Part shown: positions 1 to 30,928 of the stretch, in pieces | Position numbering within the stretch: the first letter of the stretch is position 1 | How the letters are laid out: every line of letters starts with the position of its first letter | Assembly: GCF_040822115.1 (NCBI RefSeq) | Contig: NZ_CP162004.1 | Coordinates: 2,418,001 to 2,482,000, forward strand | DNA from: Flavobacterium sp. WC2421 | GTDB lineage: Bacteria; Bacteroidota; Bacteroidia; Flavobacteriales; Flavobacteriaceae | Length of the DNA stretch: 64,000 nucleotides | Direction: 5' to 3' | Notes under the pieces: generated by a model | The model's input: the letters and a program-made list of their open reading frames with translations, nothing else | The model's database searches: none | Told to the model about the DNA's origin: nothing | Position numbers and translations under genes: made by a program

Positions 1-3000
1 TGCTTCCTCATATTTATCTAAAAGCATTTTTGTTTCAATTAGATACTTGGTATCTTTCAAGTGTTCTTTATCCTTGAAAATAGCTCTAAAGTCATCTTTA
101 TTTTCATTTACTTCAAACAATACACACAAAATTTCAGAAAATGCTTCACAGAATGCCGGCGTATCTTTTAATTGTTCCAGATTTAGATTTGAATCTGCAC
201 CAATATAAAAAACATGTTTATCATTATTTATAAATTCATTAGGAAGTAACGCCTTAGAATCACTACCATTAATTGTATAATCTAGTGACGAAACAATTTT
301 GATTGAACAATTTTTGATTGCATTTACAGCGGTATTAGTTAATTCTATGATCTTAATATTATTTAAGCGATAGGTTATTAAATAGGGTTTAATTTTATCG
401 AACCAAGCATTGAATTCTTCTACTTTTGTATGGTATAAAATATTTTTTTCTTGTATTTCGATATTAATGTCTTTAAACGTTTTAATACCAAAATATTCAG
501 CCAATTGTTTTTCACCGCTTCGTTTAGGAAAATCAAATATCCAGAAATCTTCGATGATTTTAGAAGGTAGCGTTGTATTGTCGCTGTAATAAACTTCTTG
601 TGTAGGTTTGTATTCTCTTTTATCGTTTTTTACTGCTAGTAAATGCGTTTGTTTTTTTAATAATTGATAATCTATTTCTTTATTGTTTCTAAAATAGCTA
701 AATGCTTGTTGGTATACTTTACGTGCATTTTTGGACTCAATATTTTTTGCTTTTAAACTGTCCAGAAGCATATACACTGCTTCATTAGTTAGATCGTTAA
801 AGGACATTTTTGCTCCTAACTTTTTTAGCGTATCCATGACGGTAGTGTCAGCTATACCCAATTCTACAAATGTTGAATGTTTTGGATTAACTGATTTTAA
901 ACCTAAAAAGTCGGCATACTCAAAATCCACAAATACATTTTCAAATACTTTAGCTTTAGTTATTTGATAAAGAAAGTAGGAAGGTTTTGAAACAATTGGT
1001 CGTGTTATGTTACCATAAGAATAGGTGAATGTTTCATTATTGATTTCATAATCTATTTTAGCAAGTAGTTTTTTATCTAGTATTATCCAAGCTATTACTT
1101 TTTCAAGATTCATTTTTTTTGAGATTAAATCATCAAAAAAATCAACTTGTTCTACTTCATATTTTATTGTGGTATAAAATTCTGGTGCTCCAATTTTTAT
1201 TAAAACGAATTTAGAAAAAGCATCAAAACCACCCCATTGATTAACTGTTTGTATGTTTTTTTTAAGTTTAGAATATTTAATTACACCTAACCATAAAAAA
1301 AAACTATCCAAGTAATCTGCACTTTGATGTTCAATATCTAAATTCCAAAATTCATTTCCAATAAGGTAATTATTATCTTCAAAAATACCTTCGAATAAGT
1401 TTTCAGTTATTTTACCATATTGGTATTCATTACCCAAAAAAACATCTGAACATAACACTAAATTACCATTTCTATTTATAACTTGAATGTTGTCTACGGT
1501 TGTCTTTTCACCGTCTTTTTTTTGTTTGAATATTTGGAATAATGAATTGATAAATGGTTTTACCAATTCTTGCGCATTAGATGCATCCTCTTCAACTTTA
1601 TTATTAAATGCTCGAGTAATATTTCTAACGACATCGGTTATATCATTCGAACCAAAATTTACAATAGTAGAAATAATTTTCTTTAAAGCCCTAGATTTAT
1701 GTTCGGTAGGATTAGCTCTACCTTTTTCAATTTCATCATTAAATGCATTTTCTAATTTAGAATAAAAAGCAGCATCAATAAATGCAATTTTTACATAATC
1801 CTGAATTTGGTATGAGTCTGTGTCTGCTTTTTTTAGGATATAGGTTTCAAAATCACTAGAAACAGGTTTTTCTTTATCGTCTAATAAAAGGGGTAAATAA
1901 TAACCGTGAAGATCTTTAAATGTATCTGCAGTCAAAAGCTTAATTAATTTAACCCTTTCGTCAATGCTCACTATTTTGTGTGTAACGATTTCGAATATTG
2001 ATTTCCATTCTTCCAGTGTATATTTAGAAGTAATTTTGTACTTTATTGCTGTTCTATTTGAATGAACAGGCAATAATAAATCTGGAAAATATATTTCTAG
2101 TTTATTTTCTATAACCCATTCAGAAAAATCATTCCCATAAAATTTCACCTCATTTATTTTTTTGTAAAACCCATTAACTGTAGGGTAAATAGCTAATTCG
2201 GATTTGGCACTTTCAATATTTTGAAAAAAAGCGTCTAATAGCAAGTTTTCACTTTTTCCATCTACTGTTAAGAAGTCTAAGGCTCTCCAATCGGGATTGT
2301 CTTTGTTTACAATTTCGGTACTGGCAATTTCCTTAAGTGATTCTGCAATTTGAATTAATATATAGTCATTGTCATCACTTTTGTTTAAATGATTACGAGA
2401 TGGATCTAAGTCGAATGTGGCGTGGATTAAATACGGTAAATGCGTTGCCACCTGGGTTGGGAAATACGTTGCAAAGCGCGTTTCTTTATCACTTAAATCG
2501 TTTTGCCAAGCAATTTTGTATTTATAAAATTTTTCTAAGTTGTTGGGTAAATTTAGCTCTCCACTATCAAAAAGGTTCCAGGTGATATAATTAACGGTTA
2601 ATGTTCTATCTACTTTGTCTCTTGAAGGTGTAAGGACTAATTCTTTGTCAATAGAACCAGCACCAGCAATTTGGATATTGGTTGTATGATTAAGAAACAG
2701 TAACACCTCAGGAGTAATGGTTTTTAGTTGTTCGAGAATTTTACCTTCTTCGTCTTTTTTGTATTTAAGTTCTACAATTGTTTCCCAAACTTGAGTTTCA
2801 ATATTTTCTTTAAAATCGGGTATAGCTAACACTGCAAATGGTACATCACCTATAGGTAAATCTTTTTCATTCTCAATGATTTGCTTACGTGCGTTACTAT
2901 CAGGAATTAATTGTTCGAATTGTTTTCTAGCAATTTCTTTAGAAAACTCTAAAACACATTCTTTGGTTTTGATTTTAACAACTTCAACCCAATTTAATAT

Positions 3001-3345
3001 AGAACGAAATCCTAACCCTTTGTTACCTATAAAATCTCTTTTGTTTTTTGGACTATTATTGGCCAACATTAAAGAACCTAATCCTTTTATGTCAAAAGGA
3101 ATTCCATTATTCGCAATAGTTAAAATGGTGTTTTCTGTATCTAAATGTAAAAGCACTTTATCTGTTTGGGCATCATCGGCATTTTGTAACATTTCCAATA
3201 ATTGACGACCATTATAAGCTTCTGTCAATCCTTTTTCACCACGATAATCACTAGTTATTCTGCTTGGGCTTTTATACGTGTTGTAATTTTCATCAATTAA
3301 TTGTTTGATGTTTATGATATTTAAATCTAAATTAGTTTTAATCAT
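1..3345 (-). CDS. GHKL (Hsp90/sacsin-like) ATPase, 3' end outside window
   Basis: The frame is open from an ATG at 3345 to the left edge; at least 1115 residues are visible and the C-terminus is missing from the window. I checked the frame at the start, near 2341 and at the edge, and saw no stop. It carries the GHKL N-box (LLEMLQNADD, about residues 47-56), an ANNGIPF segment near 79 in place of DxGxG, and GNKGLGFRSI near 107 as the ATP-lid glycine motif. This is the Hsp90/MutL/sacsin-type nucleotide-binding fold. I recognise no domain after it. It is the last visible gene of the seven-gene defence-like operon, 27 bp after the helicase gene. Related GHKL ATPases are known beside bacterial restriction systems; a role as an ATP-driven clamp or sensor is inference. 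Confidence 0.85.
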   Translation of the reverse strand, partial: MIKTNLDLNIINIKQLIDENYNTYKSPSRITSDYRGEKGLTEAYNGRQLLEMLQNADDAQTDKVLLHLDTENTILTIANNGIPFDIKGLGSLMLANNSPKNKRDFIGNKGLGFRSILNWVEVVKIKTKECVLEFSKEIARKQFEQLIPDSNARKQIIENEKDLPIGDVPFAVLAIPDFKENIETQVWETIVELKYKKDEEGKILEQLKTITPEVLLFLNHTTNIQIAGAGSIDKELVLTPSRDKVDRTLTVNYITWNLFDSGELNLPNNLEKFYKYKIAWQNDLSDKETRFATYFPTQVATHLPYLIHATFDLDPSRNHLNKSDDNDYILIQIAESLKEIASTEIVNKDNPDWRALDFLTVDGKSENLLLDAFFQNIESAKSELAIYPTVNGFYKKINEVKFYGNDFSEWVIENKLEIYFPDLLLPVHSNRTAIKYKITSKYTLEEWKSIFEIVTHKIVSIDERVKLIKLLTADTFKDLHGYYLPLLLDDKEKPVSSDFETYILKKADTDSYQIQDYVKIAFIDAAFYSKLENAFNDEIEKGRANPTEHKSRALKKIISTIVNFGSNDITDVVRNITRAFNNKVEEDASNAQELVKPFINSLFQIFKQKKDGEKTTVDNIQVINRNGNLVLCSDVFLGNEYQYGKITENLFEGIFEDNNYLIGNEFWNLDIEHQSADYLDSFFLWLGVIKYSKLKKNIQTVNQWGGFDAFSKFVLIKIGAPEFYTTIKYEVEQVDFFDDLISKKMNLEKVIAWIILDKKLLAKIDYEINNETFTYSYGNITRPIVSKPSYFLYQITKAKVFENVFVDFEYADFLGLKSVNPKHSTFVELGIADTTVMDTLKKLGAKMSFNDLTNEAVYMLLDSLKAKNIESKNARKVYQQAFSYFRNNKEIDYQLLKKQTHLLAVKNDKREYKPTQEVYYSDNTTLPSKIIEDFWIFDFPKRSGEKQLAEYFGIKTFKDINIEIQEKNILYHTKVEEFNAWFDKIKPYLITYRLNNIKIIELTNTAVNAIKNCSIKIVSSLDYTINGSDSKALLPNEFINNDKHVFYIGADSNLNLEQLKDTPAFCEAFSEILCVLFEVNENKDDFRAIFKDKEHLKDTKYLIETKMLLDKYEEA

Positions 3346-3372
3346 TTCTATGTAATATATATTATTTGATGG

Positions 3373-5169
3373 TTAAGCAATAATGTCCTTTGATAATCTT
3401 TTTACAAACACTTCCTTAAACCTTACACTCACATCATTACAGCTTTTAATAAACTGTTTTGTTTCTATTGAAGCAGCACTAGCTAGATCAATGTGCTCAT
3501 AGGTAATTATCAAAGTTCCTTTTGTAGCGCGGCTTGTCGCTACATTAAATAGGTTCTCATTTAAGTCGAAAGGAGGGAGATTAAGGGGTAAATATAAAAT
3601 GGTTAAATCGGAAGTTAATCCCTGAATTTTGTGCACGGTGCTTATCGTAATATTCTTGTAATCATGCGAAAGTTTACTGTATTGTGTATACAAACTTGAT
3701 TCAACATCCTTATAAGGTGTTAAGACTGCAATTTCAAATTTAGGATTGTTTTCCAAGATCTCTTTTGATAATTGACAAATGAAATTTAGCAACTCTTTTT
3801 CTGTAAAACCAGATTTGGAAGTTGATAGTTTAGCAATAGTTACTCCACCGTTATTGTGAAATAGGGAATTATACATTGATTTAAAATCAGTTTTACCTTC
3901 TATATCTGAAATGCTTTCAAGAATATTATTATAATACATACCAGTTAATCTTGAAGCGTCAGATGTTAATCTTCTTGTTTTAGTTAAACGATATGAAAGT
4001 TCACTGTTATTAAAAGCATAGGTTTGAAGCCCATTAATGACCCCTTCAATTTTAGGATGTATTAATTTTGCATCTTCTGTTTTTTTTGCAATTGGTGTAA
4101 GCTGTTTATGGTCACCAATTATTATTACTTTTGATGCTATAGTGCTAAACATGCCAATTGTTGCTAAAAAAGCCTGTGATGCTTCTTCAATTATCATTAA
4201 GTCAAATCGCTCACCATCTTCTATTAGTTTCGCTTGTTTTTGTGCTAATTTATAATAAGTAGATAAAAGAAGTTCTCCTCGATGTGGTAAAAACGATTCT
4301 GCTTTTCGGAGCTTGGGTATTTCTTTTTGTTCATCTCCTGTTAGGTTAGTCTTGTATACTTTACCATAATTTAGGGGGCTGTATAAACCGTTTTTTGATG
4401 CAATCTCCATTAAAGCTTTATTGGTTAGGGCCGTTATGCAAATTGATTTACCTTTATTTAGGTAATAATCGCATAGTTCGGCAGCTAAATAGGATTTACC
4501 CGTACCAGGAGGACCTTGTATTAATGTTGTTTTCTGTTTGTCAACTAATTTAATGACTTGTGATGTAATGTTATTTGCATTGTCCAGATTCGTTGGTTGC
4601 CACATTTCCTCACAAACCGCTAAATTTAAGTTTAGTATCTCATCTTCGTCCTTCGTTGCCACATACTCCTTCAACTTGATTAAATAATCAACCGGAGGGT
4701 CTGTTTCTGCGATTACAATCAATGGATGTATTTTATTATTTAAATATTTTTCTTTTATGATATTTAACAAACCCACTTCGAAACCTGAAACAATAATGTA
4801 GGACCAGTTTTCTTCTGTTTTCCAATAAGAAACAGTATAAATATCTGCGTTAATACCGGAGTAATATCGTGGTTGCATTGACTCTCGAAAAGTTTTATAA
4901 GAGTAGTTCCATAACAGGGGATTTGGAGAAGAGTCTGCTCCTACAAGTCCTAAGAAGTAAGGTTGCTTTATTCGTGGAACCTGGCCTTCTTTAAACCGTA
5001 ATATAATATTACCTTGATTTTCTTGAATACCCCAAATTCTTCCAATGAATACTCTTTTTTCTTGTATGAGATTATTCATTGCTGTATCAGCATATCTGCG
5101 CCATTCATCTTCTTCGGCTTTGATTTGCTGTTCATAGAACTTGATATGTTTTTCTTGTGAAATTTTCAT
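3373..5169 (-). CDS. UPF1-like superfamily 1 helicase/ATPase
   Basis: The protein has 598 residues with a full SF1 motor: Walker A GPPGTGKS near 221, Walker B/motif II IIEEASQA near 328 (DE replaced by EE, as in many UPF1/DNA2-like helicases), motif III GDHKQLTPI near 356, motif V-like TVHKIQGLTSD near 511, and motif VI NVATSRATKG near 545. The N-terminal 200 residues look like a regulatory or binding domain without a recognisable nuclease motif. It sits 3 bp after the large GHKL ATPase gene and 27 bp before the second one, so it is surely co-transcribed. In a defence setting a UPF1-like motor would translocate on nucleic acid; its substrate cannot be read from sequence. Confidence 0.9.
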   Translation of the reverse strand: MKISQEKHIKFYEQQIKAEEDEWRRYADTAMNNLIQEKRVFIGRIWGIQENQGNIILRFKEGQVPRIKQPYFLGLVGADSSPNPLLWNYSYKTFRESMQPRYYSGINADIYTVSYWKTEENWSYIIVSGFEVGLLNIIKEKYLNNKIHPLIVIAETDPPVDYLIKLKEYVATKDEDEILNLNLAVCEEMWQPTNLDNANNITSQVIKLVDKQKTTLIQGPPGTGKSYLAAELCDYYLNKGKSICITALTNKALMEIASKNGLYSPLNYGKVYKTNLTGDEQKEIPKLRKAESFLPHRGELLLSTYYKLAQKQAKLIEDGERFDLMIIEEASQAFLATIGMFSTIASKVIIIGDHKQLTPIAKKTEDAKLIHPKIEGVINGLQTYAFNNSELSYRLTKTRRLTSDASRLTGMYYNNILESISDIEGKTDFKSMYNSLFHNNGGVTIAKLSTSKSGFTEKELLNFICQLSKEILENNPKFEIAVLTPYKDVESSLYTQYSKLSHDYKNITISTVHKIQGLTSDLTILYLPLNLPPFDLNENLFNVATSRATKGTLIITYEHIDLASAASIETKQFIKSCNDVSVRFKEVFVKRLSKDIIA

Positions 5170-5172
5170 TGG

Positions 5173-8100
5173 TTAATATTCTGAGTCTTCATAAGTATTT
5201 ACATTTTCGTAATCAGGAGTGTTTTCATTTTCTCTTATTCCTCCACCAAAAATGGAGTTATAGTCTCTATTTTCTTTCATTTTAAAAATAAGCAATACTT
5301 TATTCTTATCGAAAGTACCATTTAAAATAGAGTCCGTATTTGTTGCAGTAGAATTTGCTGCCACTCTAAAAACCTGAAAGTTTGTATCACTAACATTTAA
5401 AAGCTCTTGCTTATTATTGAATAAATGATGGTTTTGTTCCCTCTTACCAGTCGAAACAAAAAGCTTAATATCATCAGAGGCTAATCTTTCCCAGGCATTT
5501 GCAGTAAGATATAATAAACCTGTTTTAGCTGAACGCCCCATAACAGTATAATTCTCAGTTTTATCAGATGAATATACAGGACTTAGTTGAGAATATATAT
5601 GAGAATCTTTTAAGTTGTTTTCTGCTTCTGTAACGTCGAAACCATTTTTTGCTAGATAAATAAGAGCAGATATTAAAGCAGCTATATTCAAATCTTTATG
5701 AAAATTTTTAGGTATTTCATCTCCAAAAAGTCTATTTAGTGCCTCTGTTTCTTCGTCTGTATATTCTACATCAAATTCTTTTTTCTTTTTCTTTTCGATA
5801 TACCTTTGTCGTTCTGCTCCCAAAGATCTCAAGATACTTAGATCTAATACACCGGTGAATGATAAAAAAAGATATTCTATATTATTTTCAATTACATAAT
5901 ATATTCCATTTATATATGCGACGAATTTATCTTCAACGGTCTTTATAATCGATTCATTATATTTTATTACGTAAGGTAGGTGAGAACCCTTGTATATTAC
6001 TATTTTGTATTTATCTTTCAACTCCCATTCTAGATAGTAATCTTCATCAAACGGATAGGAATTGTTTTGTAATTTTATGATGTCAGCCTCGCTTACAAAT
6101 TTCTGTACTACGATTTTCCAAGAAATACGGTATGTTGGAGGAACTACATCATCTGTAACCTTATTTTCGCCTGTTAAACTCGAAAAGATATCTTGCTTGT
6201 ATTCGCCCCAACCTTCGTGAATTAAATGAAGTATTGCATTTTCTTGTAACTGAATTAATGTATAATTATCAACATTTAAAATTGTTATCGATGGGAATGG
6301 TAATCCAATAACAGGAATTTTTTTGTTCTCCAATTTTTTATACAGTGGCTGTAAAATTTCTTTTTTTAGTACTAAGTTATTTTTTGTTTGCTGCTCTGAA
6401 AGCCAAGTTAGCGTGTTTATCAAAAGGAAATTATTTTCAATACTTTCCCTGTTTAAATTAATAACTTCCAGATCAGATTCTTTTATTGCTTTACGAAACA
6501 AGACAACTGGTTTTGAATCATCATTTATCCCCAACAGTTTTATATATGTTAATTTATTTTCCGGATCTGATGTATTGACCCAATCTAAAAGCCAAAGTGG
6601 AGGTTTTTCTGACTCAATAGCATATTCTTCGTTTAGAATATAATTAGTTGGGTTAAAATCAGGTATAACATTATGTTTAATAAATCCAATATAGTTATCC
6701 TCATTCAAGCATATATCAAGAAATTCACAAATGTCTTTTTCATATTGTGGTTGATTTGTTAGCCCATTTACTGAAAATGGAATTTTGTCTTTAAATACTT
6801 CTTCAGCAGGGTAATGTGATTTGTAAAAAGAAAGAAAGAAAGTTTGGATGGGGTTGTAATATGCTGGTTTTAATAAGCATAGTTCATTATAAATGATTTT
6901 TACTGATTTACCTTGAGCTTTAAACAGTATTATAAGGTTTCTATCATCTTTAAAATTAATAAATCTATTAATTATATCAGTTACAGAGTAAACCTTGTCT
7001 TTATAAGATTTTAATATTTCCTTGAGCTTAATATTAAGTTCAATTGTTTTACCTTCTTTTTGATATAACCGAACATCATCTGAAATAGCTTTTTCTAACA
7101 ATGGAATGTCATCAATGGTTATTTTTTCACGAAATGATTTGAGTTTTTCTTCATCAGCAACTACATTTAGGACAGCCAGTTTAATTATTTTAAATTCGTC
7201 CGATTCTGAATTATACGTCTTGGTTGTGTCAATATTAAAGGTTTCCAATAATGATAAATAGTGCAAACTTAATTCAGCATTGTTTGCTTTATAAATAAAC
7301 TTGGCAAAAGATGGAATTGCCATTCCATTTTCGAATCCATATTTTAATAAATCAGTACCTTGTAATAAGCCTATTTTTTTTCTATCTTCAGCATAAACCT
7401 CCGTTGGTAGTAATACCAACTTTGTATTTAAAGATGAAGATTCGATAAAGGTCACTAAATCCTGATTATCTGTGTAATATTGTACTATTGCTGAGGGAGC
7501 AATAGTGTATTGCTCTGCTGTTTTTATAATAGAAAACTTTGTGAAAAAAGTCTTTTCCCCTTCTGATTGCAACCAATCCAGAAAATGATTTATTGGCAGT
7601 ACATCAAATGTACTGGGTTTACTAAATGTAGTAGAAATATTGACTGCCTTGCTTCCCAATCCGAAAGGCACTTTTAATTGCATAGCAGCATAATGAGGTA
7701 AAACTTCAGTAGAAAGAGTCTCAATGGCTGCTTTCACACTTACATAGCTTTCTGCTGATAATTTAGCCATACTATCAGGCCAATAAACAGTCGTAGGCAG
7801 AACAAATGAATTAGTACCTAGTGTGAAAACCCAAGGAATTTGCGAAAAGTCTATTTTGCTCTCTTCGGGTTTTTCTTTGTAGAGTTTAAAAATGTAAGTA
7901 TAAAAATCCTCTATGTTTTCTGTATTAATGCCCGTAATAATTTCATTGAAAGTAGCAAGGTTGCAGAATACTTTTTCTAAAACATCTTCCTGTTTTAGTA
8001 GGTTCTTTTTAAATACTTCAGATAAGGCATTCTGTTCTTTTTGGTCGATTACAAAGTTGGACAACCAAATCGGGATATTGACACAAGTATTTGAAATCAA

Positions 8101-10539: not shown

Positions 10540-10555
10540 TATTGAAATGCAATAT

Positions 10556-11266
10556 TTATATTATGGACTGTTCGTAAAATTCAATCAATTGTTCTTTATC
10601 CCAAATGATTTCATCTTGGTAAAAAACACAAACAAATAAGTTTTCAGGACAAGGTTTAGTTTCATCCGAAAGATGTTTCCCTAAATAATGTTTTGCTAAT
10701 TCAAAGATTTTTTTGTCTTTACATCCAACTACTGCTAGAAACGCAATATTATCATTGTTACTTTCCTTATACTTTTCAATTCTAATGTTTTCCAGTTTGG
10801 CTGGAATAAGTTTATCTCTTAACTTTAAATAATCTTCTTGTCCAAATTGATTTGCTTTCTGTATATCTCGAATAAACTTTAATTCAATTGCTATGCAAGG
10901 TCCATCATAAGCAAATCCTTTACTTGTATATTGTTCGAAAAGTTCAATATTTTTAACTTCCATTTTACTTGGATCACCAATAGTAATATCTACTTCAAAA
11001 CCTGATTTTTTATCTATTTTAAACCACGTAACTTGAGAATGCACGTAACTTGTTTTAAGTTCAGAACTTCTTTGAGTATTAAAAATAGTGTCATTTTTAC
11101 AGCGATGATAGTCTTTCAATCCTTCTTCTTGAAGTAGTTTATTAAAAGTATGACATTCTAAATCGCCTTCTGTTAAAAGCATTCCTCTATTTTGTTTGTA
11201 TTCCTTTTGAAGCTTGTTTATTGCTTTTTCGACAGCTTTCATCCAAGTTAATGTAGGTTCAATCAT
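10556..11266 (-). CDS. Putative PD-(D/E)XK nuclease-like protein
   Basis: The protein has 236 residues. An acidic residue near 35 (TEGDLE), the beta-hairpin GFEVDITIGD near 90 and CIAIELKF near 127 follow the E...D...ExK order of the PD-(D/E)XK fold, so the catalytic D and ELK are visible directly. I do not recognise the exact family. It begins 3 bp after the HNH gene and is part of the large operon. A standalone nuclease beside an HNH nuclease and a DNA methylase suggests an effector that cuts unmodified or invading DNA (inference). It could instead be a non-cleaving DNA-binding member of the fold. Confidence 0.72.
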   Translation of the reverse strand: MIEPTLTWMKAVEKAINKLQKEYKQNRGMLLTEGDLECHTFNKLLQEEGLKDYHRCKNDTIFNTQRSSELKTSYVHSQVTWFKIDKKSGFEVDITIGDPSKMEVKNIELFEQYTSKGFAYDGPCIAIELKFIRDIQKANQFGQEDYLKLRDKLIPAKLENIRIEKYKESNNDNIAFLAVVGCKDKKIFELAKHYLGKHLSDETKPCPENLFVCVFYQDEIIWDKEQLIEFYEQSII

Positions 11267-11269
11267 AAC

Positions 11270-12022
11270 TTATCTCTCTAAATTTTCTTTAATAATTCCT
11301 TTCAACTCCTCGATACTCAATAGTTCTTTTCCTCGGTGTAACATTCTGTGGCAATTGGCACAAACTGGTCGTAAATCTTCTACGCTGGTTTTTCTTGCGC
11401 CTTCGGCAATAGGGTAGAGGTGGTGCATCTCTATAAATCCTTCGCCGTGGGAACCGTATGTTTTTGCAAAATCAAAATCACAAACAGCGCAATTGGTACC
11501 GTGATGTTCTTTGGCCAATGCTACTATTTTTTTGTTTCTATACTTTACTTCTTTATAGATTTGATACAAGAAACCTTCGTCTAAAAGTTGCTGATTGGAT
11601 TTTACTTTCGGCACAAATTTATCCTGTTCATTTAGCAATGATTTATGGACTAATAGTTCAAATCGTTTGCTGGCTTTTTGGTCTCGTTCAAACTTTTCGA
11701 GTATTGGATATTTATCTGCTTTTTTTGCCCAATTTATAAAAGCATTCAGAATTGTTTCTCTTGAGTTTTTATCCTTTATATCTAATACATTGATGAAGCC
11801 CAAACTGTACAATCGTTGTTTGGCCGTTCCTCCATGGTCATGATATTCGCCATCTGCACCCACACTTTTGCCGAATGTCCAATGTTTTAAATTGGGTGTG
11901 GCAATGTAGTTTTTTGCTGCTGACAATTCTTTTTTCCATTGGTCACCTTGCTCAATAATAAAATTACTATTTGTCTTGATGGCTTTGTAAATAGCTTTGT
12001 TTATTGTATCAATTTCTGTCAT
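11270..12022 (-). CDS. HNH endonuclease
   Basis: The protein has 250 residues with a C-terminal HNH domain: CAVCDFDF near residue 178, EMHHLYPI near 198 and PVCANCHRMLHRG near 220-232. These supply the zinc-knuckle cysteine pairs and the catalytic His-Asn-His set. The N-terminal 140 residues form an alpha-helical domain I cannot name; similar extensions in HNH restriction enzymes recognise DNA. It lies 3 bp after the methyltransferase gene and 3 bp before the PD-(D/E)XK-like gene. Methylase, HNH and helicases in one operon strongly suggest restriction. All HNH residues appear intact. Confidence 0.9.
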   Translation of the reverse strand: MTEIDTINKAIYKAIKTNSNFIIEQGDQWKKELSAAKNYIATPNLKHWTFGKSVGADGEYHDHGGTAKQRLYSLGFINVLDIKDKNSRETILNAFINWAKKADKYPILEKFERDQKASKRFELLVHKSLLNEQDKFVPKVKSNQQLLDEGFLYQIYKEVKYRNKKIVALAKEHHGTNCAVCDFDFAKTYGSHGEGFIEMHHLYPIAEGARKTSVEDLRPVCANCHRMLHRGKELLSIEELKGIIKENLER

Positions 12023-12025
12023 ACC

Positions 12026-15000
12026 CTAATTTTTAAATAACTCTTCAAAATGTTCCCAAGCCACTTTATAATCTGCAACTCTGTCACATTTATCAAAAGG
12101 CGCGTAATAGGTCATTTTTTGCCCTTTGTAGAGTTCACTTTTTATAGTATGTTCGTAGTTTTGACCTGCTTTTAGTTCTTTAATCGTGTCCCAAACCGGA
12201 CGGTCTAGACCAACACCCGTTAAGCCTTTACTACAGGTAAATACAATATTCCCTTTGGTGTCGTACCAAGTGTCGTCTTCGTTTTGTTGCAGTACCGGGA
12301 ATTGTACGTTGTAAATTAAGCTTAACTCCTCTAGCGTTAAATCCAACGCCATAGCGGTAATTACATCTATTTCTACTAATGCTTGGCGACGTTCAAACCA
12401 GTTGCGTAAAGGTGTGCTCCATTGCCATTCTTGGGTTAAGGTGTCAAACGGTTTTAAGCGAGTATCGTTTTTACTCCATTGGTCTTGAACAAAACTATCT
12501 TGCCAATTGTCTTGCCATAATGGTGCATAATACTTGTTCAAGCAATTGAGCTGTAAGGTGCGATTGAAAATTTGATCAATATATATGTTGTTTATTGCAA
12601 TAGGGAAAGTTTTTAATGTCTCATCATATAAATTATTTTTTCCTGTAATTTTAATATAAAAATCATAGACTATTGATGAAGCTAATGCACATAAAATAAT
12701 TACTTCACTTTCTTTTTCTGTAACTACAGAAATAATACTGTTTACATGAGAAACATTTGGAGTGATTAAAGCAGATTGTAATGTTCTTTCACCAGGCTGG
12801 TTTAGCATTTTTCCAAAGATGACTCTATACTTAGCATACCAGTTAAACCCACTACCAATTTCTTTAATTTTAGACAAATTATTTGGTAAATAATTTGTCC
12901 TAGGACGATAATTGATTGGAATTTCAAGATGATCTATATTATCATAGTCAGATCTCAGTTTACAGGCTTTCTTAGGGCATTTATAAAATGGATTTCCTAG
13001 ATAAAAATGTGGTCCACTCATTACAAAATCTACATCTTTATCTTCAAGGTATTTAGTTTCTCTTTTAATAATTTCGTCTTTAACCGCATTTGTTTCGTTC
13101 AAACCATCAGTTGAAAAATACTTAACATCACCTAATCTTTTTCTTGAAAAAGATAATTTTTCATAAACATCAATCAACTGTTTTGAGTAAGTGCTCACAA
13201 AAACAGATTCATTCCATACTGGTCTATCTTCAAATAAACTATTAATTAATCTGATTTCTTTTTCTGTTATGAACATTAAACGATTTCTATTTGAAGATAC
13301 ATTCCATTCAAAGCTATTATTCTTCTTAACTTTGATTCCTTTTGGTGTACTTAAATCATTACTAATAAAACAACCATCTATTGTGTTAGGTAGCAATAAC
13401 TCACTAATAGCAAAAAAACCTATAGCTGATTTATTCCCTGAATATACATTTATACTAAAAAACATTTGATCATGAACTTCAGCAAATAACTTCAATCCAT
13501 TACGAAAGTGAAAGTGATATTTGAGATGATAATAGATTTCTTTTCTTAAATTACCTGCTCTTGGATCATCAAATATTCCTTCAGGATGAACTAATCCTAT
13601 AAAACCATTTTTATTACTTAATAATAAAGAATTTGAAACGATACATTTATATAAATTATTTCTTTGACCAATTAATAATGGATAATTTTGTTCTGCTCCA
13701 ATAAAAGATTTTGTTGAATCAGCCCAAATGAACTCATTTATATAAAGTGATTTTAACCAATCATCATTATCCAAGATTGATTCTGATTTTTTTTTAATTT
13801 GTGGTGCAGAATAATCTCTTATAGATATTTCTGGGTTTTTTTCAGAGAGAACTCCAGCTTCATCAAGTTCAATATTTACCCAGGGAGGGTTACCAGCAAT
13901 CAAATCAAAACCACCACGTTCCCAAAACACTTCCAAAAACTCCAGTTGCGGGTGAAAGAAAAAGTATTGTTTGGCGAGTTGGCTTACCAAAACCAGTCGT
14001 TGGTTTTTGTCAAACAAGTCTTGTTGCTGGGTGCTGTCCACAACTACATCGGTAAAAGCTTGGTTTTCGGCAGCAGAGGTTCCAGGTTCCAATACCATAC
14101 TCATTTGCACACCAGTTTCAAACATGTTTTGTTGTCCTCGACGGTCTTCCATACCTTCAACAGCTTTATTTACATTTAGTTTCAGGATTTCTTCAATATC
14201 TTGCCAATATTGCCTACGGTTGGGTATAGTAGCTGCTTCACGCACATCCCAAAACCACAAACTACACCAATAGTCCATCACCATTTTTAGTTTAAAATAA
14301 GGTGCGTTGTGGCGGTTGCGCTGGTCGGCCAGGCGTTCTTTTTCGTCATAGCTACGCATTTCGGCCGTAAGCTGCTGTACCGGTACGCCAAAAATATGTT
14401 GTTTGGTTGCAGTGGCTTGGTTAATGGAGCGTTGAAATTTGTAATAGTCGATAAGCAGTTCGTCTATTTTGTTGCTGATTTTTTTAAGAATTTCCACTTC
14501 TGATTTGGTGAGTTGTTTGCACCATTCTGCCTTCCATTTGGAAACCGCTTTGCTTTCGGCTTCATAATCGACTTTCAGCATTTTAATTCCTGCCGAAGCC
14601 AACATGTTCTTATCAGGCAACAAGAAATGATAAATTTCATCAGCTTTGCGATCGTGGTTTATCTTGACGTAATTGGTAGAAGGTTTGAATTCCAATAGGC
14701 GAGGGGCCTTGTTCCACCATTCTTTTTTAACTGGAACTCTTTTGCTTTTCCCTTTGCTGTCTTTAATTAATTCGTATTCTTCTTCAACATCTTTGGCGGC
14801 ATAGACTTTTAACCATGCTCCCACCACGGCATTACCCACTGCTAAACGGTTGCTAAAGAAAGGGGTTTCCATATCTTTATGAATCACGTTGAGCCACAAA
14901 GAAAGTTTACCCAATTCAATCGCTGTAGGGTTTAAATCGACTCCGTAGGTATTGTTAGTAGCAATATAGGCTTTTACACGTTGTAGCTCTTCCAGGTATT

Positions 15001-16867
15001 TATCGGGAGCCACACGCCATTCTTTTCTTCCACTATCGCGAAGTTCTTTTTGACGATAAGTGAGATAGGCATCAGCGACCTGATTGATCATTTCGTTGTG
15101 AAAAGCAGCGGCACCCATAGCTGGTTCCAAAAGCTTTAGATCTAGTAGTTCTATGGCTTTCATTTCGCCTTTTTCCAGCTTTTCCAAGATGGGTTTTAGG
15201 GTGTATTTTACGGTAGATTTTGTCAGTACCTCAGGCGTATAGTAAGAAGCTGATTTTTGACGGTCACGACCACTCAGGCGATACACAAAAGCACCTTTTT
15301 TGGTAATGATATCCTGATCAACACTGTCTTTGAGGATTTCATTTTCTTTGAAATCGTCACGGCGCGAACGAGGTACCATATAAGTGCCTTCTTTAGGTTT
15401 ACCCGCTTTGTGGACTTCAATATAATCCTGTTCCGCATAGAAACCACGAAACGCCAATAAACTTTCGTACACGCTTCCCAATTGGTTAATACCTAGATTG
15501 GCATACGATATACGGCCACGGGTTTTGTTCTTTTGTTGCTTAGAAAGGGACAATTGACAAATGATGTCTTGCCAGGTTTTATTTCTAAATTTTACTTTGT
15601 GTAAATGATAAAGTTTACGGTCATCAAAAATAGGGGAGTCGATATGACGTACCCTAAAGCTTTTGTTGTTCCCATTTTCACTTTCACGATAGCCGGAGCT
15701 TAAAACATAAAATAATTTACTCAGTGATTCATGAAAGAAATAGCCATTGATACTGCTTTCAGAGTATAATGGCACTTGTTCCAGGTCGCGCAGCATCTCA
15801 AGTGAATAGCCTTTGTTGTAAATAGAGTCATTGCTAGGCAAGATATCTAAATCTTCGCGGCTTTCGGCATAGAAAATAAAGAGTAAACGGTAAATGAAGC
15901 GCAAACAATCGTCTTTGATTTCTTGCTCGAAGGTATCGTCGGTTTCATCAAGGTTTTCTTTTATTTGTACTTTGTTGTGATGGTACCAAATGGCCTCGTT
16001 TGCCAAGGCTTCCACCGCATTGATGATTCCTTCCTTTAGATCTTTGGTAACTTCATAAGCACTTTTATGGCTGTCTTCATCCAATTGATCTAGTAAGACC
16101 ATATTACTGTCTGGTGCCAAAGTTTCTTTACCTAAAAGGAAATAGAACAGTGCATAGTAATTGGCATTCCTGTTGGCTGTGGCTTCTGTGAAAAGTTCCT
16201 CCAAATCAATTTCCAAATAACTACCACGGAACCATTTCTCCTGCTCTAGAAGAAACACTACGTTTCCAGCCAAAAGCATGATGTATTTTGGGCGGTTGTG
16301 TTGTTCTAAAAGGAACAATTCAGAAATTGCTTTATTGATAATTACAGGCGAAATAGTTACTCCTGCTGGCGTAGTAAAAACCCTGTCCCATTGACTGCGG
16401 TGATAACGTTGTGGTGGAGAAGCCAATTCCTCTTCGGCTACATTGTACTGTTGTTCAAACAAGCCATCTGGTTCTGTGTCGTCTTCTCTGATCAAGGCCT
16501 GCATTTCCATAATCATCAGGTGCGGTTGGACACCACGATAGAGTATATGACGCACAGGAATTACATCCTTTTCTGTCAGATGGAACAAATTTTTGTATTG
16601 ATGGTGATCGCCGTCATATCCTAGCACGTTTAAAAGATAGGAATGAAACTTATGGGTTTCTTCAATTTTATCTTTGGTACGTAATTTGCCTTCAATGAAT
16701 AGTTGTTTGAAACGGTAAAAACGGTCTTTTAAAGGCGTGATTTTTTTATTGAATTCTTTGATATCTTCTGCAGCATATCCTGTTTTAGATAGCACTTTGG
16801 AAGTGAAATCTTCATCAAAATAATTGGAAGAGAAATAATCACCGGTATTTTTTAGAAATTTAAGCAT
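12026..16867 (-). CDS. Giant N6-adenine DNA methyltransferase (Eco57I/PglX-like)
   Basis: The protein has 1613 residues. SAM-binding motif I is LEPAMGAAAF near 580 (consensus DPAxGSGxF), followed by GVDLNPTAIELGKLSLW near 643, and the catalytic motif IV is AGNPPW near 990. The gap of about 400 residues between motifs I and IV is large and implies an inserted domain. The C-terminal half after NPPW resembles the target-recognition part of type IIG and BREX PglX enzymes. The first 550 residues have no nuclease motif I trust. It starts 8 bp after the SNF2 gene. Expected role: methylation of adenine in host DNA, marking self. Its size exceeds typical PglX (about 1200 residues). Confidence 0.9.
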   Translation of the reverse strand: MLKFLKNTGDYFSSNYFDEDFTSKVLSKTGYAAEDIKEFNKKITPLKDRFYRFKQLFIEGKLRTKDKIEETHKFHSYLLNVLGYDGDHHQYKNLFHLTEKDVIPVRHILYRGVQPHLMIMEMQALIREDDTEPDGLFEQQYNVAEEELASPPQRYHRSQWDRVFTTPAGVTISPVIINKAISELFLLEQHNRPKYIMLLAGNVVFLLEQEKWFRGSYLEIDLEELFTEATANRNANYYALFYFLLGKETLAPDSNMVLLDQLDEDSHKSAYEVTKDLKEGIINAVEALANEAIWYHHNKVQIKENLDETDDTFEQEIKDDCLRFIYRLLFIFYAESREDLDILPSNDSIYNKGYSLEMLRDLEQVPLYSESSINGYFFHESLSKLFYVLSSGYRESENGNNKSFRVRHIDSPIFDDRKLYHLHKVKFRNKTWQDIICQLSLSKQQKNKTRGRISYANLGINQLGSVYESLLAFRGFYAEQDYIEVHKAGKPKEGTYMVPRSRRDDFKENEILKDSVDQDIITKKGAFVYRLSGRDRQKSASYYTPEVLTKSTVKYTLKPILEKLEKGEMKAIELLDLKLLEPAMGAAAFHNEMINQVADAYLTYRQKELRDSGRKEWRVAPDKYLEELQRVKAYIATNNTYGVDLNPTAIELGKLSLWLNVIHKDMETPFFSNRLAVGNAVVGAWLKVYAAKDVEEEYELIKDSKGKSKRVPVKKEWWNKAPRLLEFKPSTNYVKINHDRKADEIYHFLLPDKNMLASAGIKMLKVDYEAESKAVSKWKAEWCKQLTKSEVEILKKISNKIDELLIDYYKFQRSINQATATKQHIFGVPVQQLTAEMRSYDEKERLADQRNRHNAPYFKLKMVMDYWCSLWFWDVREAATIPNRRQYWQDIEEILKLNVNKAVEGMEDRRGQQNMFETGVQMSMVLEPGTSAAENQAFTDVVVDSTQQQDLFDKNQRLVLVSQLAKQYFFFHPQLEFLEVFWERGGFDLIAGNPPWVNIELDEAGVLSEKNPEISIRDYSAPQIKKKSESILDNDDWLKSLYINEFIWADSTKSFIGAEQNYPLLIGQRNNLYKCIVSNSLLLSNKNGFIGLVHPEGIFDDPRAGNLRKEIYYHLKYHFHFRNGLKLFAEVHDQMFFSINVYSGNKSAIGFFAISELLLPNTIDGCFISNDLSTPKGIKVKKNNSFEWNVSSNRNRLMFITEKEIRLINSLFEDRPVWNESVFVSTYSKQLIDVYEKLSFSRKRLGDVKYFSTDGLNETNAVKDEIIKRETKYLEDKDVDFVMSGPHFYLGNPFYKCPKKACKLRSDYDNIDHLEIPINYRPRTNYLPNNLSKIKEIGSGFNWYAKYRVIFGKMLNQPGERTLQSALITPNVSHVNSIISVVTEKESEVIILCALASSIVYDFYIKITGKNNLYDETLKTFPIAINNIYIDQIFNRTLQLNCLNKYYAPLWQDNWQDSFVQDQWSKNDTRLKPFDTLTQEWQWSTPLRNWFERRQALVEIDVITAMALDLTLEELSLIYNVQFPVLQQNEDDTWYDTKGNIVFTCSKGLTGVGLDRPVWDTIKELKAGQNYEHTIKSELYKGQKMTYYAPFDKCDRVADYKVAWEHFEELFKN

Positions 16868-16875
16868 GGATTTGA

Positions 16876-19758
16876 TTATGAATTATAAAAAACGGCAATT
16901 ACTTTTAAATAAGGTTCCCCCTGTAAAGAGGTTAAATCTTTAAAGTACTGGCTTGAACTGCTCAAAATAGTTTCGATTTCGCGTTGTTTGTTGTCTTTCA
17001 TTTTAGCCCAATAATTGCCGACATTTTTTTCATTAAAATCGATTTCTAATTGTTCGATGGCAGCGGAATGCCAGTTTTCTATCTTGGTTTGGTAAGCGCT
17101 CATTTTACTTTCCATGTTTCCTTCTAACACTTGTTGTTCCTCTTGCATATGACTATGAGCCCATTCTACAGCATCGGGTAAAATGCTTTGCAGGTTCGCA
17201 ATATGCTGCTCTGTGATGGTCTCAGTAAACATTTTTTCTGTTAGCTTAAATTCAGAAATAAACTGATTTAAATCGAGAGTTTTTCTATGAATTGTTCCAT
17301 CGTCATTTAACCCCACTACATAGAAATCGGATAAAATAGGCTGTCCTAAATTATTAGCAATTTGTCCTTGAAAAATGTACCAAGCCGTTTGAGCTGGAAA
17401 GATTTTAGACTTGGCTACCAAAGCCACATCTTTGTCTACGCTTGCTTCTAACTTAGTCATATAATACCGAACTACTGGATGCAAATCATAGAGCACTTGA
17501 AATTCAGCCCAAGCCCCTTTTTTCTTCCTAGCATCTTCAATGGATTTTTGAACTAAATCTTTATCCAATGATAATTTGTATAAACCACCGATGGCAGGTT
17601 TTGATTCTGGCGGTAGGTCGAATAGTATTTGGTTTAGGTCTTTGGTGTTAACTATTTCTATATAATCTTCACTTACTTCAACCTCTTTGTGTTTTAGTTG
17701 TTGGGCAGAATCTAATTGCTCGAATAACGCTTGGTAATATTTAAAATCAGAAGAGTAGATTGAGGTTGGCTGTTCATAAGGATCGTCTGTTACCACAACT
17801 TCTGTTTTGTCATCGTCACTGCCAAAAAGCGTAGAGAAATCAAAATCTTTCATGGCTTTATCAGTAGTGTCTAAGAAATTTTCATTTTGAGTTAAAAAAG
17901 CTTTTTCAATAAATTTCTCTTCCTTATCTGTATCGTACAACTTCATTACAGAACCTGCATCTCCTAATGTTTTATAAACTTCTTCTTCTTTCTTAGTCAA
18001 ACGATCAACGATGTGTAAATCAGTTTTCAATCCTTCAATATCCGATTCGGCAATGATGTAATGAATAAATGGTGTTTTCTTTTGACCATAACGATCAATA
18101 CGACCGTTGCGTTGTTCAAGAGTAATCAGTGACCAAGGAATATCGTAATTGAACATTCGGTTACAGAAGTAATGAAGGTTTACCCCCTGAGAACCTGCAT
18201 CAGAACATAGCAGTATTTTTACAGCACTATCCTGTTTCCCAAAATCTTCAATAATATTTTGTTGCTCACTATCAGATAGGCCGCCATGAAAATAAGCAAT
18301 GGCTTCATCGCTAATTTTAAAATCATTTTTCAGATTTCCTTTAAGGTATTCCAAAGTGTTTATTCGCTCTGCAAAAATCACATAACGGTCGTCTTGTTTT
18401 TTTCCAGACCAACCTAAACCTAAAAGGGTTTCTTTTAGTTTTTTATATTTAGTATCTGATTTGCTAGATATAATTTTTTCAAGTTTTACTTTTAAGGTTT
18501 GTAGGATTTCCACATTATCCTCAAAACTAGAATCGGAACTGTTTTTAACTTTGACTTTTTCTAATCTTCGTTTTACACTTTCTAAAGCTGCTAAAGGTGA
18601 AGACATAAATGCTTTGAATAATCCTATAGAGAATAGAAAGTCATTTTTTGATTTTTGTTCTTTACCTTCCTTTATTTTCTCAATAGCTTTGAATTTGAGC
18701 TCTTGTTGGTATTGCAAAAAATCAATTTCATCGGCACTTAATGTAGCAGAAACTCGCTCTATTTTTCGTTCTTGAAAATTGGCTCTAACGGTTTCGTCTA
18801 CAATATCATTTTTAAATCTACGCACATAGTAAGGTGCTACATGGCTTTTGTCGTATTCCCCGCTCTTGGGAATAGCTGTTGGCTCAATCATGTTAATCAG
18901 GTTGGCAAAATTTTCTTTTTTACCATTATGTGGTGTCGCTGAGGTAAGTATTAACGACTCACATTTTTTGGCAATGAATTGCGCTAAATCTCCTTTTTGG
19001 CTTCTATCATTGGCCACAGTATGACATTCGTCAATGACCACCACATCCCATCTTGATTTTTCTAAATAATGTCTGAACTTAGCATTTTGTTTCAATGTGT
19101 CAATTGAAATTATAGTTTTATCATAGTATTCAAAAGGGTTTTTATTGGCAGGTAATTGTGATTTTATCTTAGCAATTCCATCCGAGTCTAAACGTACTAA
19201 TGGAATGGCAAAACGGTTCCACAATTCTTGTTGGAATTGTGCTAATATTGATTTTGGAGCCAATACCATAATCCGTTTTCCTTTACCTCTTTTGATCATT
19301 TCTGCTAAGAAGATACCCACTTCTATCGTTTTTCCTAATCCAACACCATCAGCGATTAATAGACGAGGTCTTGGCAGTTGGAGTGCTTTTAGGGTAGGAG
19401 TCAATTGGTATTCTGCTGCATTGATAGCGGCTTTAGTAGCAATTGTTATTTTATCTGAAAATATAGCCGAGTTCCGTATTTGGGTTTCCAGAAATAATTT
19501 TGTTTTTCTGTAACCACTATCAGTATCCGGAATAAGTGTTGTAAAGTTAGGATCAATGGGCTTTATGTCGGTATCTAAATTGGTATCAAAAGAAAATCGT
19601 TTTCCTTTTACCAATTCACTAATACCTTCGGCTTCCAGTAACTGTGAACCATCATGATTTGTGTTCGTCCCCGTGACAATAAAATCTTCTCCTCTGGTAG
19701 ATATTCTTTGTCCTATGGTTAGATTGTAGTTTTGAAGGGCTGCTTGGTCTAAATTCAT
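16876..19758 (-). CDS. SNF2/RapA-type helicase, first gene of operon
   Basis: The protein has 960 residues. Motif I is DGVGLGKTIE near 139, motif II DECH near 241, motif III TSATPHNG near 272, and motif VI RNGRIDRYGQ near 551, all diagnostic of Snf2/RapA superfamily 2 translocases. The C-terminal 300 residues are helical and partly coiled-coil-like, with no PLD nuclease HKD motif seen. It is the promoter-proximal gene, with a palindrome 43 bp upstream. Pairing of a SNF2 helicase with an adenine methylase is the hallmark of DISARM class 1 (drmD, drmMI), but drmA, drmB and drmC are not present in the window. The start at 19758 is the first ATG after the upstream non-coding region. Confidence 0.92.
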   Translation of the reverse strand: MNLDQAALQNYNLTIGQRISTRGEDFIVTGTNTNHDGSQLLEAEGISELVKGKRFSFDTNLDTDIKPIDPNFTTLIPDTDSGYRKTKLFLETQIRNSAIFSDKITIATKAAINAAEYQLTPTLKALQLPRPRLLIADGVGLGKTIEVGIFLAEMIKRGKGKRIMVLAPKSILAQFQQELWNRFAIPLVRLDSDGIAKIKSQLPANKNPFEYYDKTIISIDTLKQNAKFRHYLEKSRWDVVVIDECHTVANDRSQKGDLAQFIAKKCESLILTSATPHNGKKENFANLINMIEPTAIPKSGEYDKSHVAPYYVRRFKNDIVDETVRANFQERKIERVSATLSADEIDFLQYQQELKFKAIEKIKEGKEQKSKNDFLFSIGLFKAFMSSPLAALESVKRRLEKVKVKNSSDSSFEDNVEILQTLKVKLEKIISSKSDTKYKKLKETLLGLGWSGKKQDDRYVIFAERINTLEYLKGNLKNDFKISDEAIAYFHGGLSDSEQQNIIEDFGKQDSAVKILLCSDAGSQGVNLHYFCNRMFNYDIPWSLITLEQRNGRIDRYGQKKTPFIHYIIAESDIEGLKTDLHIVDRLTKKEEEVYKTLGDAGSVMKLYDTDKEEKFIEKAFLTQNENFLDTTDKAMKDFDFSTLFGSDDDKTEVVVTDDPYEQPTSIYSSDFKYYQALFEQLDSAQQLKHKEVEVSEDYIEIVNTKDLNQILFDLPPESKPAIGGLYKLSLDKDLVQKSIEDARKKKGAWAEFQVLYDLHPVVRYYMTKLEASVDKDVALVAKSKIFPAQTAWYIFQGQIANNLGQPILSDFYVVGLNDDGTIHRKTLDLNQFISEFKLTEKMFTETITEQHIANLQSILPDAVEWAHSHMQEEQQVLEGNMESKMSAYQTKIENWHSAAIEQLEIDFNEKNVGNYWAKMKDNKQREIETILSSSSQYFKDLTSLQGEPYLKVIAVFYNS

Positions 19759-20139: not shown

Positions 20140-20775
20140 TTATTTTTTAGCAATTTGTTTTAGATTGAAGCTGTCTAAAACCTCTTGCATTTCATGTAAA
20201 TGTATCAATACCATTTCCTGTTCAAAGCTTTGTGACAATTGAAGCAAATGTAATGGATCAAACAAAATTGGACTTAGAGAAAATTTTTCCAAAATAAAGA
20301 ATATTGCCTGATCAAGTGTTTTGTTACTGCAGAGGATAGTGTTGTTTTTGAGATGGATGTGAATGGTCTGTTTTTTACCATGTTCCTCCAAATTAATTGG
20401 AATGAATTTTACCTGATATTCTTTGAGATTGATATCCTGAATAATGAAAGGAGTGTCTAGTTTGTTTATCCTTTTTTCAATGGTTTCTTTTGAGTCTATA
20501 AAGGCCGTGAATCTCCATGTTTTTAATACTGGAGCATTGTCCGCCAGGTCAATAACTTGTTTGAATAATTTGTGATTGCCATTGGAGGTAATTATGAATT
20601 CGAATTGATCCGTTGAGCTTTTTGGAAAAACGATGATAAAGTCTAATTTCCTGCAATAGTAGTTGAGGTTTTGTTTGATCCAATAGCAGATTGTTTCTTG
20701 ATTTTCAGCCGAATGATTTAGAAGATTTTTGATGATATGGTGGTTGTCGAGGAACCAGTTCCAGAAGTTTTTCAT
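20140..20775 (-). CDS. Unknown 211-aa protein of element core 1
   Basis: I do not recognise a named family. It starts with an aromatic-rich segment (NFWNWFLDN) and has a conserved core (FIITSNGNHKLF, then DNAPVLKTWRFTAF). The paralogue at 46948-47589 shares this architecture (FWNWFQDN, LIITANGNPDYF, DNAPQLRNWKFTAF). There are no membrane segments and no signal peptide. It is the last gene of the element core in both copies, always just before cargo. The divergence between the copies with the core retained argues for a functional gene. Confidence 0.8.
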   Translation of the reverse strand: MKNFWNWFLDNHHIIKNLLNHSAENQETICYWIKQNLNYYCRKLDFIIVFPKSSTDQFEFIITSNGNHKLFKQVIDLADNAPVLKTWRFTAFIDSKETIEKRINKLDTPFIIQDINLKEYQVKFIPINLEEHGKKQTIHIHLKNNTILCSNKTLDQAIFFILEKFSLSPILFDPLHLLQLSQSFEQEMVLIHLHEMQEVLDSFNLKQIAKK

Positions 20776-20830
20776 AGTTAATTAGTGGTAAGTAGTGAAT
20801 AGTGAAAAGGTGTTGGGTTTTGGTGAATGG

Positions 20831-20857
20831 TGTCCCTCGACTGCGCTCGGGATGACA
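20831..20857. repeat. REP-like palindrome, copy 1
   Basis: A short palindromic element (CCCTCGACTGCGCTCGGGA core) lies between the 211-aa gene and the ATPase gene. It belongs to the same family as the elements at 21565, 27506 and 48601, with a consensus near CCTTCGACTCCGCTCAGG. Confidence 0.75.
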
Positions 20858-20864
20858 GTTTGGG

Positions 20865-24001: not shown

Positions 24002-24003
24002 AA

Positions 24004-24052
24004 AATACAAAATGGTTTAAATTGAGAGTATCAAAATAAACCATTTTGTATT
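24004..24052 (-). promoter_or_regulatory. Perfect 16-bp inverted repeat upstream of the RteC-like start codon
   Basis: AATACAAAATGGTTTA (24004-24019) and its exact reverse complement (24037-24052) flank a 17-nt loop. The repeat ends two bases from the ATG at 24001, so an RNA hairpin would cover the translation start. It has no T-run, so it is not a terminator. It could equally be a protein operator. The second RteC copy lacks it. Confidence 0.65.
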
Positions 24053-30920: not shown

Positions 30921-30928
30921 ATTTTTTA

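Follow-up and report, generated by a model that had tools for sequence, protein, structure and literature searches.

ARMADA blocks phages in Escherichia coli, where its four-gene operon needs no insert for protection (Bell et al. 2025, PMC12458937). All four genes are required, mutation of the NPPW motif of ArmB abolishes protection, mutation of its S-adenosylmethionine (SAM) motif causes a partial loss, and the gene order is described as strict (PMC12458937). Here we analyse an operon at the left edge of a 64,000-nucleotide stretch of Flavobacterium sp. WC2421 (bases 2418001-2482000 of a single 3.83-Mb contig, NZ_CP162004.1; hereafter the window). Homology identifies its frame as ARMADA Type II, into which 13.5 kb of cargo is inserted between armB and armC. 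From the window alone, the original prediction had proposed an undescribed seven-gene defence system.

That defence genes can be embedded in other defence operons is known in principle, and a 2024 preprint by Payne et al. reportedly describes such cases. In the passages available from the respective papers, TgvAB is embedded in a type I restriction-modification (R-M) operon and active against phages with modified DNA (PMC11411939), DarTG2 likewise lies within an operon of type I R-M (PMC12255303), and a backup role is proposed for nucleases inside BREX operons (PMC12839542). The present locus resembles these in placing unrelated defence genes inside a modification-based system, and GmrSD, Schlafen, HNH and PD-(D/E)XK classes recur. 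It differs in that the host is ARMADA and in its GHKL cargo, which those passages do not name. The words Hsp90 and GHKL are absent from the main text of Bell et al. (PMC12458937), as are Hsp90, GHKL and sacsin from the main text, so far as available, of a 2026 BREX survey (PMC12839542).

Core genes of the operon

The cluster is cut by the left edge of the window. As originally predicted, seven co-directional open reading frames lie there, on the minus strand (lengths in Table 1; the last covers at least 1115 aa within the window), and the gaps between them, 8, 3, 3, 16, 3 and 27 bp in gene order, fall in the predicted range of 3-27 bp. The operon had also been taken to end at base 1, which proved wrong. 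The last gene, GHKL2, encodes 1562 aa and extends 1344 bases beyond window base 1, to genome base 2416657 (L003:6657-11345); after a gap of 103 bp follow armC, encoding a YprA-family helicase, and, overlapping it by 4 bp, armD, encoding a RelE-like/UvrD helicase. The full operon comprises nine genes, armA-armB-(HNH, PDX, GHKL1, SF1, GHKL2)-armC-armD. Because armC and armD, the name-giving helicase among them, are located outside the window, the frame had gone unrecognised; once the two genes were read as such, the candidate of an undescribed seven-gene system was rejected.

As a reference we used a four-gene operon from an E. coli plasmid, which represents the published family because its eight residues K136 and D236 (ArmA), G605 and N971 (ArmB), K110 and D234 (ArmC), and K266 and D454 (ArmD) are exactly those mutated by Bell et al. 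The proteins of the Flavobacterium operon are 35.6% identical to E. coli ArmA over 931 aligned residues, 38.4% to ArmB over 1531 residues, 30.7% to ArmC over 1992 residues and 35.0% to ArmD over 688 residues, the latter end to end. The eight residues are conserved as K143 and D243, G585 and N993, K107 and D236, and K263 and D450, respectively. Since the four genes stand in the published order and all eight mutated residues are conserved, we identify the frame by sequence as ARMADA Type II of Bell et al. 2025 (PMC12458937). An ArmA helicase, an ArmB with NPPW, a single-chain ArmC with canopy and an ArmD are all present. The strict A-B-C-D order is retained, but 13,472 bp separate B from C, making the operon a variant, and its ArmC belongs to a separate, deeply split Bacteroidota group. 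The initial view that this is a defence operon is supported by family, gene order and residue-level homology to a phage-blocking system (Bell et al. 2025).

ArmC unites DEAD, Helicase_C and MrfA Zn-binding (MZB) domains of Pfam in one 2107-aa chain. At its C terminus, in the position of the Vsr-type nuclease, seven residues are invariant in 21/21 sequences, without a clear structural match: Foldseek, used alone, gave no significant match, nor did a profile search of PDB sequences. No match to ArmB was found among PDB sequences; the 2023 PADLOC model PDLC03614 classes it as type IIG R-M with 1723.8 bits. The ArmD N terminus is 40% identical to that of E. coli ArmD, while the RelE fold alone is weak (1wmi, E 0.013, with spurious matches scoring better).

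In an ArmC tree (quick method, long branches, midpoint root, rows without any Druantia sequence), the window falls in a group of 15 Bacteroidota rows with a support of 100 in the SH-like approximate likelihood ratio test (SH-aLRT). Four rows of this group, L074, L084, L089 and L130, were found via GHKL1 and so are not blind to cargo. The tree left out L077 and L085 (armC pieces only) and L082 and L132 (duplicates of genomes G997 and G984); genomes G1213 and G1123, found after the tree and with ArmC identities to the window's operon of 86% and 68%, were placed in its group. In G997, G984 and G1123 (L172, L174, L185) no ArmD was seen immediately after ArmC, which is 107-116 residues shorter there than in the window's operon.

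Druantia comprises DruE with type-specific partners such as DruH. ArmC matches the PADLOC DruE model with 348 bits, its best DruE score, and E. coli ArmC with 806 bits, the two being different kinds of score; no other Druantia model is among the matches listed for the nine genes. The earlier statement that DrmA- and Druantia-type markers are absent therefore holds within the window but not next to it, where this ArmC lies. DISARM class 1 has a separate canopy gene, DrmB, and a phospholipase D (PLD) nuclease, DrmC, whereas here the Zn-binding canopy is fused in ArmC and neither DrmB nor DrmC is among the matches listed. With BREX the operon shares a PglX-like ArmB, but those matches include no PglZ or BrxC.

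The cargo slot between armB and armC

ArmC homologues were sought blind to cargo in four overlapping samples, in each of which the window's own genome was counted. Long matches were found in 10/395 genomes of the phylum sample, 5/395 of the class, 6/397 of the family and 3/398 of the genus, the latter showing how patchy ArmC is; together they provide 20 other genomes. In the phylum sample 39/395 genomes matched at E up to 1e-20, and 29 with partial YprA matches were left out. ArmB and ArmC were located on the same contig in 17/20 genomes, which constitute the measurable slots.

The slot was occupied in 10/10 measurable loci of the window's clade, by 1.6-14 kb and with eight different cargo sets, whereas outside the clade it was occupied in 1/7 and empty in the other 6/7 (-4 to 62 bp). 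In this Bacteroidota clade the slot is thus consistently filled and its cargo turns over. It holds AbiEi-AbiEii in G142 (with genes of equal lengths in the 97% identical locus of G1213), a 258-aa gene and a Schlafen-AlbA gene in G484, a weak PDX relative and two GmrSD genes in G505, Schlafen-AlbA in G738, and a GHKL2 relative as sole cargo in both G819 and G959. GHKL1-SF1 accompanies a 125-aa gene in G997, three small genes and GHKL2 in G984, and PDX and GHKL2 in G1123; the cargo gene sets of these three match the Mesoflavibacter, Lutibacter and Flavobacterium sp. BFFFF2 loci. The filled slot outside the clade, in G344, contains 24 kb, in which a pPIWI-RE gene is accompanied by unrelated genes, including those for secretion-tail and cohesin-type proteins. 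Three loci are cut by contig ends (G215, G395, G535), with an SF1 gene before armC in G395 and a DUF4407 gene in G535.

Between the window and G142, DNA homology breaks off six bases short of the end of armB on one side and at the start codon of armC on the other. The armB-armC junction is intact in 514/518 matching E. coli genomes (inserts below ~800 bp would escape notice). Plasmid-borne ARMADA is without insert in E. coli and Microvirga and has one short slot gene in Nostoc. This Nostoc gene (L168:10376-10933) gives a MoxR-type match, and just past the Microvirga operon, on the opposite strand, a DUF3883 protein is encoded (L169:18336-23090). In some loci the armA-armB junction is occupied as well, by GmrSD and YhcG genes in Rudanella and by NOV_C and Fic genes in Cyclobacterium. 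The arrangement of the core is found again in other genomes, and that of most of the insert in one, bearing out the expectation of more than chance co-occurrence. Pfam gave no match for cargo proteins of 122, 157 and 139 aa in Lutibacter, 257 aa in Cyclobacterium, 258 aa in G484, 241 aa in G505 and 166 aa in L077; two Pfam-less cargo proteins appear HEPN-like in our own reading.

The domain calls made on the window (SNF2/DrmD-like helicase, Eco57I-type methylase, HNH, two sacsin-type GHKL ATPases and UPF1-like superfamily 1 (SF1) helicase) were all upheld. For the HNH domain, the closest solved structure is EcoKMcrA (6ghc, E 1.9e-5, residues 157-239). The 236-aa PDX protein has no Pfam match and, by Foldseek alone, no significant structural match (best E 0.03); its predicted fold (predicted local distance difference test, pLDDT, 90.2) and invariant D93, E128 and K130 fit a PD-(D/E)XK nuclease, in agreement with the initial call. 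GHKL1 and SF1 match PADLOC models only partially, TmtA and MkoA respectively. The SF1 match (88.7 bits) has its best stretch at residues 311-550 only, so that SF1 corresponds to part of MkoA and the full-length MkoA/MkoC architecture of Mokosh is not seen. GHKL2 matches the Tiamat model PDLC03964 (TmtA) almost full length, with 1107.7 bits over 13-1523, and belongs to Tiamat as defined by this PADLOC model, on which the likeness rests; it differs in sitting inside ARMADA. Residues D1446, E1462 and K1464 of its C-terminal NOV_C domain are present in 69/70 aligned rows, the remaining row being a gap. A dead NOV_C nuclease at the GHKL1 C terminus was considered and dropped (profile comparison probability 0.1). 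The proposal of an undescribed system, which fails for the frame, survives in part for the insert, given the partial TmtA and MkoA matches and the wording of Bell et al. and of the BREX survey.

Viral contigs yielded only five weak GHKL matches (29-42% identity, at most 405 query residues), and none of 12 plasmid records with GHKL1 covered 80% of the query. A contig scan with the single GHKL1 sequence found no relative, whereas the GHKL1 alignment as query did.

Replacement within ArmB and the GHKL1-SF1 pair

Closely related operons differ by replacement of one ArmB segment. Between G142 and G1213, ArmA and ArmD are 100% and ArmC 99.7% identical, and 18 kb of operon DNA is ~100% identical except for ~1.5 kb of armB at 62-81%. 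At the protein level, G819 and G959 share 98.7% identity in ArmA, 99.2% in ArmC and 99.9% in ArmD, and 37-68% in ArmB aa 901-1500. The window and G142 are 33-43% identical at ArmB aa 1001-1400 and 89-98% over most of the rest, with further dips to 68% at 701-800 and 78% at 1401-1500. In each pair the drop starts at about NPPW and stops near aa 1450-1525.

Among E. coli genomes with a match, identity to the query is at least 95% for ArmC in 518/518 and for ArmB aa 1-900 in 510/515, and at least 90% for the ArmB C-terminal end in 515/519. Measured against one query allele, the segment itself is at least 99% identical in 34 genomes, 90-95% in 14, 80-90% in 135 and 60-80% in 318 (n = 501); it is below 90% in 453/501, and 347/501 cover 80% of the segment. 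By its sequence pattern, the replaced stretch of ~450 aa is probably a specificity cassette. By analogy with PglX-type enzymes it would read the methylation motif, BREX PglX/BrxX being methyltransferase and specificity factor in one protein according to the passages available from PMC11341690 and PMC11842806. No word beginning with methylat- occurs in Bell et al. (PMC12458937).

GHKL1 loci were fetched with the GHKL1 alignment, and the best 80 of 363 were analysed. An SF1 helicase of the window's kind adjoins the GHKL1-like gene in 50/80, mostly -26 to +14 bp apart. Eight of the 50 pairs, from five named families, adjoin ARMADA genes, seven of them flanked by both armB and armC and the eighth preceding armC on a contig starting inside the insert. 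Counted with profiles, type I, IIG or III R-M genes are located within 10 kb of 12/42 non-ARMADA pairs versus 1/30 GHKL loci without the partner, superseding an earlier count of 11/42 versus 1/30 with queries taken from pair loci. The link remains suggestive only, because leaving out the five query-source loci gives 7/37 versus 1/30 (Fisher p 0.066). At nine loci the pair stands in co-directional runs with R-M genes. A Piwi-domain protein is encoded directly upstream of GHKL1-SF1, beside a type III R-M set, in Sphingobacteriales (L073:7913-9973), and L075 has a protein of equal length at the same place.

On a GHKL1 tree (FastTree, long branches; 77/81 rows, four below 1000 aa being dropped), the ARMADA label needs 6 changes, 5 of them forced by well-supported branches; the pair has therefore been exchanged, gained or lost more than once. 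L082 (Mesoflavibacter), in which GHKL1 occupies two overlapping frames of 1076 and 785 aa (the gene may be broken or split, or the assembly wrong), entered the tree with its first reading frame only. Over seven ARMADA loci, ArmC identities correlate with those of GHKL1 (r 0.53, p 0.018) and weakly with those of SF1 (r 0.35, p 0.09). Close cores can nevertheless hold very different pairs: G984 and G997 are 71% identical in ArmC, 25% in GHKL1 and 39% in SF1. Between G819 and G959, which are ~99% identical in ArmA, ArmC and ArmD, the centre of GHKL2 (aa 401-900) is 46-78% identical versus 91-98% around it.

Tentatively, and with slightly more doubt than belief, we propose that GHKL1-SF1 is an unnamed two-gene defence module which docks into methylation-based systems (ARMADA and type I, II and III R-M), that ARMADA of Bacteroidota is organised around a slot dedicated to such docking, and that ARMADA retargets by replacement of the ArmB segment, with G819 and G959 hinting that cargo and core sensors diversify together. 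As far as literature searches and main-text term searches show, ARMADA as a host, a clade-wide slot, GHKL1-SF1 as a mobile rider and ArmB allele exchange are new.

Proposed working and surroundings of the operon

We consider it likely that the locus is an anti-phage ARMADA Type II operon with the armB-armC junction as a cargo slot, the core providing methylation-based discrimination of self and non-self and the cargo parallel or backup immunity. ArmB would mark host DNA, its exchangeable domain (~aa 1000-1450) recognising the motif, and the motors ArmA, ArmC and ArmD, with the nuclease-like C-terminal domain of ArmC, would attack DNA without the mark. The insert is probably transcribed with the core. 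A Bacteroidota promoter consensus sought upstream of the nine genes gave one match with a mismatch, before armD, which is about chance level. The HNH and PD-(D/E)XK proteins, GHKL1-SF1 and the GHKL2-nuclease (Tiamat-family) would most likely confer parallel or backup immunity, for example where the incoming DNA is modified or the core inhibited, and GHKL1 may serve the SF1 motor as an ATP-driven switch resembling Hsp90.

The order A-B-PDX-GHKL1-SF1-GHKL2-C is seen again in Flavobacterium sp. BFFFF2, GHKL1-SF1 is found between armB and armC in 7/80 loci and before armC in an eighth, across five named families, ArmC and GHKL1 identities correlate, and no measurable slot of the clade is empty. 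These observations would also suit an enlarged ARMADA of this clade, in which GHKL and SF1 proteins are obligatory subunits and all nine genes work together. We regard such an integrated machine as unlikely, since related operons with all four core genes carry AbiE (G142/G1213), GmrSD (G505) or Schlafen (G738) instead, since the pairs of G984 and G997 differ far more than their ArmC, and since the four-gene operon of E. coli is protective without an insert (PMC12458937).

Less probable still is a junction that merely tolerates insertion, its inserts having no functional tie to ARMADA or defence. The secretion-tail and cohesin-type proteins beside pPIWI-RE in G344, the several small cargo genes without Pfam match and the suggestive nature of the R-M link are compatible with such passenger DNA, but the recognisable cargo of the clade runs in the direction of the core and consists of restriction, toxin-antitoxin, Schlafen or GHKL genes, and GHKL1-SF1 occurs in co-directional R-M runs at nine loci. 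Although YprA-family helicases have repair roles too (Bell et al., PMC12458937), a DNA repair or chromosome-maintenance complex using the same enzyme families is hardly credible in view of the patchy distribution of ArmC in the genus sample, the replacement of the ArmB specificity segment and the homology of the complete four-gene core to a system tested against phages. We therefore retain the reading of an ARMADA operon with a cargo slot, the features of which are given in Table 1.

Table 1. Genes and segments of the ARMADA operon (window positions unless marked genome)
Feature	Position	Strand	Basis or remark
armA, SNF2/RapA-type (BrxHII/DrmD-like) helicase, 960 aa	16876..19758	-	domain and model matches; comparison with E. 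coli ArmA
armB, PglX-like DNA methyltransferase, 1613 aa, NPPW at 993	12026..16867	-	domain and model matches; Eco57I-type methylase
armB replaced segment, ~aa 1000-1450, putative target-recognition (specificity) domain	12518..13870	-	identity drops in operon pairs
cargo 1, HNH nuclease, 250 aa	11270..12022	-	Pfam HNH; PDB 6ghc match
cargo 2 (PDX), PD-(D/E)XK-type nuclease, 236 aa	10556..11266	-	predicted fold and invariant residues
cargo 3a, GHKL1, sacsin-type GHKL ATPase, 1788 aa	5173..10539	-	Pfam SACS, NCBIfam P_loop_sacsin, PADLOC TmtA models
cargo 3b, SF1 helicase, UPF1/NAM7 group, 598 aa	3373..5169	-	Walker A GPPGTGKS at 219; domain matches
cargo 4, GHKL2, sacsin-type GHKL ATPase with C-terminal NOV_C, 1562 aa (1115 aa in window)	1..3345	-	
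armC, YprA-family helicase, 2107 aa, outside window	genome 2410230-2416553 (L002:12230-18553)	-	ends 1448 bases left of base 1
armD, UvrD/GajB-like helicase with RelE-like N terminus, 697 aa, outside window	genome 2408140-2410233 (L002:10140-12233)	-	
armB-armC cargo slot, 13,472 bp in total	genome 2416554 to window base 12025 (in-window part 1..12025)		

Elsewhere in the window, 20472-22458 and 46989-49257 both match one single stretch of G142, at 69-79% and 79-89% DNA identity. The intervening 24.5 kb, unmatched in the compared G142 stretch, encode an RteC regulator (23162-24010) and a tyrosine recombinase (24101-25348) and probably entered as a mobile element; also located in this interval, at 38707-46304, are efflux genes (P-type ATPase, HlyD, and an RND pump with outer-membrane part). 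A second co-directional set at 29541-38545 encodes a Schlafen-AlbA protein of 459 aa, an AAA/STAND protein of 1480 aa with an LmuA-like N terminus and a type IIG restriction-methyltransferase of 1053 aa.

The locus illustrates that a window or contig edge, together with 2023-era models that assign ArmB to type IIG and GHKL2 to Tiamat, can keep a composite system from being recognised. Through guilt by embedding, the cargo slot offers candidate defence genes, GHKL1-SF1 foremost. Finally, self and foreign recognition by ARMADA is directly testable with natural operon pairs that differ in little but the ArmB segment and with the diverse segments found across hundreds of E. coli genomes.
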